From Candidatus Bathyarchaeota archaeon (lineage in GTDB: Archaea > Thermoproteota > Bathyarchaeia > Bathyarchaeales > DTEX01): a stretch of 48,420 nt of DNA. Below the pieces are notes generated by a model. That model was not told where the DNA came from and did not search any database. It saw only the letters and a program-made list of their open reading frames with translations. Position 1 is the stretch's first letter. Each line of letters begins with the position of its first letter. Shown piece after piece: positions 4,142-48,420 of the stretch. The stretch is from contig JAGTRG010000005.1 in NCBI GenBank assembly GCA_018396435.1, forward strand, positions 1 to 48,420. The letters run 5' to 3'. The position numbers were made by a program, and so were the translations under genes.

Positions 4142-5209
4142 TTAATCATATTTTTCGGCAGCGCCATGGATCGGATATTCTCCATACTTTTTTGCGGCTT
4201 TAAGCATTATTATGAAATTTTGCGGTGAAACAGAATCATGTATGGTGTGTCCCGATCCTAGTATGTATCCTCCGCCATATGCAGCTTCATTAATGGCTTT
4301 CTTAACTTCCCTTATAACCTGATCCGCTGTTCCGCTTGTAAGCGTATATGCGACATCGATATTTCCTATAAGGCATATTTCCTCACCATATTTCGCTTTC
4401 GCATCGCAAAGTTTCATCCCAGCCGTAGGTTCTAAAGGTTGAACAGCATCTATGCCGGCTTCTATTATCCCATTCATAAGCAAATTTATGTTACCGTCGC
4501 AGTGGAGCAGCACAGGCACCCCTCTCTTATGAAAATTTTCAGCCACCCTTCGAAGCTCCGGATATATGATCTCCATCCATCTTTTTGGGGAGATGAAAGG
4601 CCCTGTTTTATATGCGAAATCGTCCGCAACAAGGAGGGCTTCTGCCCCCGCGTCTATCAAGGCGTTACCGCAAGCAATAGTATAGTCTGCATGGTCTTTG
4701 ATAACCCTTCTTACGAAGCCTAAGTTGCTTTGCATATATCTGAAAAAGTCAACAAAGCCCACCGCTTCTATGGCTACTTCAAAGATGCTCCCGCAGCATG
4801 GAATTAAGAAAAGCCGCCCTTCAGATGCCTTTACACTTTCTTTAAAATACTCAACTCTCCAAGGATCATGGGGGTCAGGTCTGGGAAAAGCATAGTATTT
4901 TTCAGGGGTATTAAGTGTGCCTCCCAAATAGAAGTCAGATGTGGAGAAAGAGATTTTCCTCGTGAATAATCTTCCAAACTCATCAACATATCTATCGCTG
5001 TTCAACTGCTTACTATTCTGGTGATTTAGGAAAGGCCATATTACCAACGAATCTAATCCTAATTTTGATAAAGCAATAAATTTTTCATGATCGATTAAGC
5101 CTGGAAAGATCTTTTTAAGCACCACATCGCTTATCCCTACCTCAAGAAGGGGTACTCTATCGGGTTCCTCTAGGAAAATTGCGGAGAGAACCCGATCTCT
5201 TGAATTCAA
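4142..5209 (-). CDS. URO-D/methylcobamide methyltransferase (MtaA-like) family protein
   Basis: A 355-residue URO-D-family protein. It starts NSRDRVLSAIFLEEPDRVP, the usual N-terminus of the family, carries LLHCDGN near residue 234 where MtaA-type enzymes place a zinc-binding His/Cys motif, and ends with GGGYILGSGHTIHDSVSPQNF, the conserved C-terminal loop. Family knowledge suggests methyl transfer between a corrinoid protein and a thiol or other acceptor; haem-type decarboxylation is less likely. The start is TTG at 5209. It overlaps the TGA stop of a truncated upstream frame as TTGA, a sign of former translational coupling. Confidence 0.75.
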   Translation of the reverse strand: MNSRDRVLSAIFLEEPDRVPLLEVGISDVVLKKIFPGLIDHEKFIALSKLGLDSLVIWPFLNHQNSKQLNSDRYVDEFGRLFTRKISFSTSDFYLGGTLNTPEKYYAFPRPDPHDPWRVEYFKESVKASEGRLFLIPCCGSIFEVAIEAVGFVDFFRYMQSNLGFVRRVIKDHADYTIACGNALIDAGAEALLVADDFAYKTGPFISPKRWMEIIYPELRRVAENFHKRGVPVLLHCDGNINLLMNGIIEAGIDAVQPLEPTAGMKLCDAKAKYGEEICLIGNIDVAYTLTSGTADQVIREVKKAINEAAYGGGYILGSGHTIHDSVSPQNFIIMLKAAKKYGEYPIHGAAEKYD

Positions 5210-5385
5210 TATTTTCCCCTCCAGTTTATTTCTCCCAAAATTTTCCTCAAGTTTATGAGGCTTTGCCGCGTGCCCTCTTCCGGATTTAAAGTATTCTCAT
5301 ATTCTATAGAGAGGTACCCTTTGCATTCCACTACTACCAAACCAAACATTTTCTCAGCATCCCCCCGATTAAGGCTTGTCTCGGC
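5206..5385 (-). pseudogene. C-terminal remnant of a sugar-phosphate isomerase/epimerase
   Basis: About 59 codons are open on the minus strand after an in-frame TAA at 5386-5388. The translation contains TSLNRGDAEKMFGL and GYLSIEYENTLNPEEG followed by a leucine-rich helix, the usual end of xylose-isomerase-like TIM-barrel proteins, where a closing GYLSIEYEG...PEEG segment is common. The rest of the barrel is missing. The stop TGA overlaps the TTG start of the downstream URO-D gene, so the fragment looks like what is left of the first gene of this operon after a deletion or insertion at about 5386. Family assignment is from memory of the motif. Confidence 0.6.
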
Positions 5386-5508
5386 TTAATAAATAGAAAA
5401 CTTCAGATAAAAAGTCTTATTATGTAAGATTTTTATGGGTGACTCTTACGTTAGAAAAGGGCTGGGATAAGCGGCGAAACCTTTTATAGAACTTTGAATG
5501 TTAGAAGA

Positions 5509-5698
5509 GTTGATTAGCCAGCAATGGCAACTTAGACCTTTTCGTTGGAAATACTGAGCAACCCTAGCGACCCGCTATATAACACCCTAATCTCTTCGTA
5601 AGCCCGTTATGGGGCTCCACAACTCGTTTATTAGGCTTGGACGAAGGGTTACGATGAAAGTTGTTCGGCTCAGGCGGCAGGTTTAAAGGTGGCTGAAC
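5509..5698. ncRNA. Candidate structured RNA or decayed long palindrome
   Basis: Seven complementary pairs are nested around one centre (5603-5614): GTT 5509-5511 with AAC 5696-5698, AGCC 5516-5519 with GGCT 5691-5694, ACCTTT 5536-5541 with AAAGGT 5685-5690, CTGAGC 5554-5559 with GCTCAG 5668-5673, AACCCT 5560-5565 with AGGGTT 5645-5650, CCTAAT 5586-5591 with ATTAGG 5630-5635, and AGCCC 5601-5605 with GGGCT 5612-5616. The shared centre is more than chance pairs would normally give. It does not match RNase P or SRP RNA motifs that I know. Strand is undecided; competing pairs exist (CTTCGT/ACGAAG, GTTCGGC/GCTGAAC). Confidence 0.3.
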
Positions 5699-5728
5699 AA
5701 AAGCAGCATGCAGAATGCACACGCCAAT

Positions 5729-5751
5729 AAAATTGCTACAGTAGCAATTTT
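5729..5751. repeat. Perfect 11-bp inverted repeat followed by T run
   Basis: AAAATTGCTAC and GTAGCAATTTT flank a single A, a perfect 23-base palindrome, and T continues to 5754. On the plus strand this resembles a hairpin plus U-tract; as DNA it could be a protein-binding site. A partial copy (CTGTAGCAAT) follows about 25 bases later. No plus-strand gene ends close by. Confidence 0.5.
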
Positions 5752-5991
5752 TTTCTCAGGGATAACAACTGTAGCAATGGATTAGGGAATAGGGTTGGTT
5801 TTAAGGATGGACCGGAAATCATATTGAGGTACTCCTTCAGAATATACCTCCCACTCCTAGAACATGAGCAGATAACAGAATTCCAAGGGAGGAGCAAATC
5901 CTCAAGAAGACGCCCCCGCAATTTTCTCAGATTTAAACGGTTAGAGTGCTACACCAAAATCGCTTGGCATAACCGAAAGAAGCATATTTAA
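5731..5991 (+). pseudogene. Possible remnant reading frame, unknown
   Basis: An 86-codon frame is open from just after TAA 5728-5730 to TAA 5989-5991. It has no ATG and no clear Shine-Dalgarno. The end is strongly basic (GRSKSSRRRPRNF and IAWHNRKKHI), which is reminiscent of the C-terminus of a DNA-binding protein or transposase, but I do not recognise a family. An open stretch of this length can arise by chance. I regard it as a possible broken gene only. Confidence 0.2.
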
Positions 5992-6102
5992 GAGAGCTTT
6001 ATGAAATCACAAACAGAAACAGCCTTAATCCCAATCTTCGGATTCGAACTCCGAGAATGGAGCCAATTTTAAGCCGTGTTCCAGAAGATCAGATTGAAAA
6101 AG

Positions 6103-6180
6103 TGGCGGGCCCGAGGGGAATTGAACCCCCGACCCTCGGCTTAGGAGGCCGATGCCCTATCCTGACTAGGCCACGGGCCC
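6103..6180 (-). tRNA. tRNA-Arg (anticodon CCT)
   Basis: The reverse complement folds as a full cloverleaf. The acceptor GGGCCCG pairs with CGGGCCC, the anticodon stem TCGGC/GCCGA encloses the loop CTCCTAA (anticodon CCT, reading AGG), and the T-stem GGGGG/CCCCT has loop TTCAATT. The discriminator is G and the CCA end is encoded (6103-6105). There is no intron. An A/T-rich TATA-like stretch lies on the minus strand at about 6200-6215, at the right distance for a start near 6181. Confidence 0.95.
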
Positions 6181-6283: not shown

Positions 6284-7201
6284 TTGAAGATTAAGGATCC
6301 CTTTGGAAGGGCTGTTGAAAATATAAGGGTGTCAGTTACCCAAAGATGCAACTTCAGCTGCATCTATTGCCACCGTGAGGGTCAAGCGTCAAATTATGAG
6401 GTTGAGATGTCGGCTGGAGAAATTAAGCGAATAGTTAGGTTAGCTGCCTCCTTAGGTGTTGACAGCGTTAAATTAACGGGCGGTGAACCCCTACTGCGCA
6501 GCGACATAATTGACATAACGCGCGGGATAAGCAGCATAACCGGCATAAAGGATGTTTCCATGACGACGAATGGTTTCCTCCTAGCTCAATACGCTGAGCA
6601 ATTAAAGGAAGCTGGCCTTTCAAGGGTTAACGTCAGCCTAGACACATTGAAACCTGAAAGGTTTAGGTTTATCACCAGTATAAATGCCCATAAAAACGTT
6701 GTTGATGGAATAATTAGAGCTGTTGAGGTGGGCTTAAACCCGGTTAAAGCAAACGTGGTGCTGCTTAAAAACGTAAACGATGATGAAGTAAGCGACCTGA
6801 TAGATTTTGCGGGAAGCCACAGCATAGTGCTTCAAATAATTGAGCTTGAGAAATTCGGCAATGAAACCTTTTATGAGCAGTATCACGTTGATCTAAGCAG
6901 CCTCGAAAAAGAGCTTGAGGAGAAAGCCTCAGAAATAATTGTTAGGCGGATGCAGCATAGGAAAAAATACATTCTTGACAATGGGGCTGAGGTTGAGATC
7001 GTCAAGCCCATGCATAATACTGAATTCTGCCTTCACTGTAATAGAATCCGCCTCACATCCGATGGGCGGCTTAAACCATGCCTATTCAAGAACGATAACC
7101 TAGTAGACCTTCTAGAGCCCATGAGGCGGGGCGAAGACGATGAATATTTGAAGAATCTATTTATTGAGGCTGTGATGAGGAGAAAACCCTACTTTATATA
7201 G
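6284..7201 (+). CDS. moaA: GTP 3',8-cyclase MoaA (molybdopterin/tungstopterin biosynthesis)
   Basis: A 305-residue radical SAM protein. The SAM cluster motif C22-x3-C26-x2-C29 sits in RCNFSCIYC, KLTGGEPLLR is the conserved SAM-binding strand, and the second cluster is C249-x2-C252-x13-C266 (CLHCNRIR...KPCLF), which defines MoaA. It converts GTP to the cyclic precursor of the pyranopterin cofactor. The cofactor is needed here by the two tungsten AOR-family enzymes in the window. The start is TTG 6284 with GAAGGAG upstream; the next in-frame options are too far inside. The gene is first of a rightward run with the oxidoreductase and purE-purC genes. Confidence 0.93.
   Translation: MKIKDPFGRAVENIRVSVTQRCNFSCIYCHREGQASNYEVEMSAGEIKRIVRLAASLGVDSVKLTGGEPLLRSDIIDITRGISSITGIKDVSMTTNGFLLAQYAEQLKEAGLSRVNVSLDTLKPERFRFITSINAHKNVVDGIIRAVEVGLNPVKANVVLLKNVNDDEVSDLIDFAGSHSIVLQIIELEKFGNETFYEQYHVDLSSLEKELEEKASEIIVRRMQHRKKYILDNGAEVEIVKPMHNTEFCLHCNRIRLTSDGRLKPCLFKNDNLVDLLEPMRRGEDDEYLKNLFIEAVMRRKPYFI

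Positions 7202-47898: not shown

Positions 47899-48420
<522 letters not shown>

Follow-up and report, generated by a model that had tools for sequence, protein, structure and literature searches.

Nested complementary blocks beside a tRNA-Arg gene of Bathyarchaeia, probably a chance pattern at the worn edge of a dispersed repeat

The interval 5509-5698 of the window (the whole stretch of 48,420 nucleotides analysed here) probably brings together unique intergenic sequence (about 5509-5599) and, at about 5600-5698, the worn left end of a repeat specific to the lineage. Its complementary blocks would be due to chance, and the repeat is most probably a non-autonomous mobile element in decay, or else a terminal remnant of one. 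The interval, as it had been delimited, cuts across the actual feature, which extends to about 5810: within this intergenic region of Bathyarchaeia, the sequence from about 5600 to 5810 belongs to a dispersed repeat.

The locus

Genome G000, an archaeal genome of 1.39 Mb, is assembled in 91 contigs, of which the window is C43. The interval is intergenic, between a gene of the URO-D family and tRNA-Arg(CCT), with a MoaA-like gene beyond the tRNA:

4142-5209, minus strand: URO-D family gene
5509-5698, no strand: nested complementary blocks of the original prediction, judged to be chance from shuffles, a scan of the window and homologues
6103-6180, minus strand: tRNA-Arg (CCT), with its 3' end at 6103
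6284-7201, plus strand: flanking radical SAM / molybdenum cofactor synthesis (MoaA-like) gene

Both ends of the window carry ribosomal RNA on one strand, 47 kb apart, the 5' part of the LSU rRNA at 1-456 and the 3' part of the SSU rRNA at 47900-48420; unless the assembly is faulty, the two genes seem to be unlinked in this genome. G000, which is 87% complete, shows no match to RF00373, the model of archaeal RNase P RNA, while the control was positive in 11 of 14. Since the model is unmatched in the genome, and since the region matches no Rfam family, identity with RNase P RNA was dropped.

Nested blocks and chance

The original prediction had singled out seven complementary blocks, four of them perfect 6-mers, pairing in order across a centre near 5608, and proposed a novel structured RNA. 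The four 6-mer pairs do exist, nested with centres at 5605-5613.5:

5536-5541 with 5685-5690: ACCTTT / AAAGGT
5554-5559 with 5668-5673: CTGAGC / GCTCAG
5560-5565 with 5645-5650: AACCCT / AGGGTT
5586-5591 with 5630-5635: CCTAAT / ATTAGG

As for the figure of seven, it is ordinary: with blocks of at least 4 and a common centre of 10 nt the count is indeed 7, and 22 of 60 shuffles reach it. For this fixed interval the nesting is uncommon, four nested 6-mers being reached by two of 300 dinucleotide shuffles, and by none of 60 when the centres have to lie within 10 nt. However, when the 48 kb are cut into 1206 segments of 190 nt at steps of 40, six hold four nested 6-mers, the five others starting near 4561 (within the URO-D gene), 8601, 17401, 31721 and 38521, so that such a place is to be expected when the whole window is scanned for nesting.

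Folding does not set the interval apart either. On the plus strand its energy is -53.5, where shuffles average -51.75 (z -0.41) and 63 of 200 do as well; the minus strand gives a z of -0.76 (42 of 200 as good), and the interval ranks 141 among the 1206 segments by energy. An Rfam search of the region, with E up to 10, returned three matches at chance level (E 0.97-5.4).

When positions 5440-5780 were compared with 61 genomes, only G000, G001 and G010 matched strongly and in multiple copies, and these matches all fall in 5661-5780; the copies in the genome itself are 91-98% identical over 50-82 bp. Four more genomes (G006, G038, G053 and G054) gave one weak match each, with E of 0.001-0.007, dropped as chance, that of G006 (locus L006) being one that could be a relic. 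With 5400-5700 as sole query, nothing rose above chance except the ends of two loci, L002 and L003 (E 0.0015), and the 5' blocks of the nested set have no homologue in the 61 genomes. Homology to these two loci extends left to about 5600 (a local alignment of L003 with 5560-5650 scores 55.8, a value matched by none of 500 shuffles), and 5661-5810 is about 81% identical to them. The nested 6-mers number 0, 0 and 1 in L002, L003 and L011, where most blocks are missing, so that the nested pairs are not conserved; one 3' block, at 5668-5673, even sits inside a stretch of about 33 nt (5650-5682) that is extra to L002 and L003. The blocks at 5509-5698 are most likely a chance pattern, and they consist solely of the decayed left edge of the repeat and of unique sequence. 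A novel structured RNA, which folds no better than shuffles and of which no homologue keeps the pairs, finds no backing here.

A more precise form of that proposal deserves a hearing of its own. In it, a non-coding RNA particular to the lineage, about 245 nt long, would start near 5510 from an upstream box, fold as a nested rod, and end at the hairpin and T run at 5732-5754. The box in question is:

5476-5488, plus strand: candidate archaeal BRE/TATA-like box, 21 nt before 5509

GAAACCTTTTATA at these positions is the only exact match to the box in the 48 kb, and it stands at the usual promoter distance before 5509. With up to one mismatch the box is found three times for 0.66 expected, and four of 100 shuffles reach three. 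The four perfect nested 6-mers and the hairpin with its T run would fit such a gene. Against it, 5508-5756 folds with a z of -1.40 (19 of 200 shuffles as good) and its nested part with the z of -0.41 already given; Rfam offers nothing beyond chance level, the 5' blocks lack homologues in the 61 genomes, most blocks are missing from L002, L003 and L011, and the terminator-like hairpin is part of the repeat and is also found where the rest is missing. This RNA gene is thus very unlikely, the place of GAAACCTTTTATA at promoter distance giving a small chance that a short transcript peculiar to the lineage exists.

Anatomy of a dispersed repeat

The repeat, as it appears in the window, is built as follows:

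5600-5728, plus strand: decayed left module 'B' (the best alignment with L003 reaches 5560, and is weak before about 5600)
5650-5682, plus strand: about 33 nt extra to L002 and L003, holding the 3' block 5668-5673
5729-5778, plus strand: core of the repeat, a palindrome of 50 bp
5732-5742 / 5768-5778, plus strand: outer inverted arms of the core, 11 bp
5732-5739 / 5741-5748, plus strand: inner hairpin arms of the core, followed by a T run
5779-5810, plus strand: stub of the right module of the repeat

The extra stretch at 5650-5682 is probably a diverged partial tandem duplication, since the sequence on both its sides aligns to a single stretch of L003. A MITE-like palindrome or a decayed element had also been among the initial suggestions, and this came close, save that the palindrome lies outside the interval, at 5729-5778.

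Multi-copy, dispersed and non-coding, the repeat has 24 cores, eight each in G000, G001 and G010; among 24 listed stop-to-stop frames three were scanned and had no Pfam match, and a decayed coding gene was dropped. In all 26 loci were taken, two of which, C68 and 1C9, lack a complete core and stand outside the 24. Matches with three mismatches in G008:C63, G003:C1, G005:C21 and G000:C27, where no shared flanking repeat was seen by eye, were not counted. A degenerate pattern of the core was found in nine stretches of GTDB contigs, from three assemblies including QZM_A2_bin_24.

The cores were aligned in 21 rows, 19 of them distinct, excluding three with a damaged left arm (10C54, 10C2 and 10C90). 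Over the distinct rows, 91.9% of the cells of the outer arms are paired, two pairs (12 cells) have changed on both sides, and the covariation score is 0.154 against 0.102 in shuffles, none of 500 being as high; as kinship of the copies can inflate covariation, these compensatory changes are support rather than proof. Conservation is lower in the inner hairpin (83.6% of cells paired), with columns 10 and 20 unpaired in 11 of the 19 rows. The 11-bp inverted arms, with their compensatory changes, lie inside a larger repeated unit whose flanks are modular: several copies share a left module, of which there are two kinds, and a right module, of which there are several. By eye, the layout of the arms varies too, G001:C29 having a plain inverted repeat of 17 bp and G001:C104 a direct repeat. 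At one syntenic site the layouts differ, the 17-bp inverted repeat of G001:C29 (L012, 1335-1383) facing the hairpin form in G000:C66 (L008, 1532-1581).

The repeat and tRNA 3' flanks

In seven of the 24 copies the core follows the 3' end of a tRNA by no more than 400 bp, with the tRNA always pointing at it. The distances are 324 bp for Arg-CCT, 150 for Pro-TGG, 258 for Lys, 172 and 164 for Met, and 255 and 254 for Pro-CGG; an eighth copy, in G010 (C86), is 551 bp from tRNA Pro-TGG. When syntenic copies are merged, a grouping of our own making that leaves about 14 distinct loci, five are near a tRNA, at 150-324 bp and in one orientation, for a chance expectation of 0.05, or of 0.24 if copies are limited to intergenic DNA assumed to be 20%. 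No tRNA was called at about 9 of the 14. About 200 bp to the right of the core in two loci, L065 (G010:C6) and L066 (G001:C48), the eye picks out a stretch resembling an intron-containing tRNA, which neither ARAGORN nor Rfam calls.

A further likeness between flanks is seen close to the tRNA of the window:

5973-6086, no strand: tRNA-flank module, with about 70% similarity to G000:C20 and to the tRNA-Met flank of G001:C58

The copy of the tRNA-Met flank in G000:C20 (L087) stands there without the tRNA, and by eye an open frame past the break resembles that of a small DNA-binding or antitoxin-like protein.

Could the core be a signal in DNA or RNA, for instance a bidirectional transcription stop behind tRNA and other genes, kept for that function? 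Intergenic copies behind tRNA genes, the T run after the inner hairpin, the compensatory changes and the many copies that keep their place in two or three genomes are what such a signal would display. But many copies have a broken inner hairpin, as the 83.6% of paired cells indicates, loci with no tRNA called are in the majority, and only three genomes of the genus carry the repeat in number, so that most tRNA genes do without it. We hold a conserved signal to be quite unlikely, and favour a decayed mobile repeat.

Presence and absence at syntenic sites

Genome G001 is 93% identical to the window up to 4585, and again from 6102; what lies between has no counterpart at the syntenic site:

4586-6101, no strand: segment not shared with the syntenic site of G001, where about 480 unrelated bp are found

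For both G001 and G010, identity sets in again at 6103, where tRNA-Arg has its 3' end, and thus the variable segment at this locus begins at a tRNA 3' end. G010 is 93% identical from the tRNA on, with a contig that ends about 270 bp behind it, and its sequence there matches neither G000 nor G001. The URO-D gene is matched in G001:C20 (L119) by its C-terminal part only (4142-4585), with unrelated DNA beyond. Likewise, for the copy of G001 near tRNA-Lys, matching to G000 sets in again at the tRNA 3' end. Another copy of G000, in C84, is missing in both G001 and G010, whose sequences agree with each other at that place; examination of this copy found no target-site duplication, and the site shows a replacement (about 433 bp against about 200 bp) where a clean insertion would have been expected of a MITE. 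Many copies sit at identical places in two or three genomes, which therefore do not demonstrate recent movement. We infer the mobility of the repeat from copy number together with presence and absence, and an alternative mechanism, such as recombination between flanks, could account for the same pattern.

Tyrosine recombinases were sought in the three genomes, with 21 matches, four of which lie 153-189 bp behind a tRNA in the same orientation. That resemblance in distance and orientation, together with matches that resume at tRNA 3' ends, is what would be expected if the core were the binding or crossover site of an integrase-borne element, its copies being att-linked scars of a family of plasmids or viruses integrating at tRNA genes. 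Three results run against this view: the core occurs in 0 viral contigs, with no phage or plasmid match, for which a viral or plasmid origin was rejected; it is found in none of the 10 integrase loci examined; and the window has no duplicated tRNA end (attR), the 24-nt end being there in one copy only, while a second match at 2105 (16 nt, three mismatches) is within chance. None of the 21 recombinase matches lies in contig C43. Such scars are in our opinion unlikely, again in comparison with a decayed, non-autonomous repeat.

Likeness to known elements

REP/BIME palindromes are mobilised by Y1 transposases (TnpA-REP). Like them, the present repeat has a palindrome that is small (about 50 bp), intergenic and imperfect in its stem, but larger flanking modules travel along with it, and no Y1 transposase passes the family cut-off in any of the three genomes, a single match below the cut-off being found, in G010. 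An origin as a Y1-driven REP was accordingly rejected, and no parent enzyme could be tied to the repeat among the Y1 and tyrosine recombinase families that were sought.

Among archaea, the MITEs SMN1 and SM3A of Sulfolobus islandicus (PMC3718332) are also short and dispersed, with inverted repeats, a presence in few related genomes, and no frame of a known family found. In contrast to these, the repeat has yielded neither a target-site duplication (at C84) nor a parent transposase (among Y1 and tyrosine recombinases), its flanking modules vary between copies, and its inverted arms lie within the repeated unit. The same source presents tRNA 3' flanks as sites of integration and rearrangement in S. 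islandicus (PMC3718332). Remnants of tRNA-integrated elements, as portrayed there, resemble our case in that syntenic identity breaks at a tRNA 3' end and that integrases lie behind other tRNAs here; however, the locus in the window has neither integrase nor duplicated tRNA end, and many copies are not next to a tRNA gene. In the literature searched, titles and the beginnings of abstracts gave no description of such a repeat in Bathyarchaeia.

The simplest course of events would be as follows. In this lineage, the 3' flanks of tRNA genes may act as sites of integration and rearrangement; the repeat would have spread as DNA at these flanks, which integrases use as well, and decayed after spreading, a non-autonomous passenger now worn out. 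A bolder idea, to which we grant very little probability, is that core and exchangeable modules at tRNA 3' flanks make up an undescribed class of archaeal tRNA-flank cassettes, the core being a DNA exchange site that swaps intergenic modules with 93% identity kept over the remainder of the genome.

What the repeat means

As an RNA, the interval 5509-5698 has no importance. The repeat itself is a small unnamed family, limited to a few genomes of Bathyarchaeia, that marks tRNA flanks as sites of rearrangement in the lineage. It also gives rise to intergenic sequence which appears structured in scans, yet is no RNA gene.
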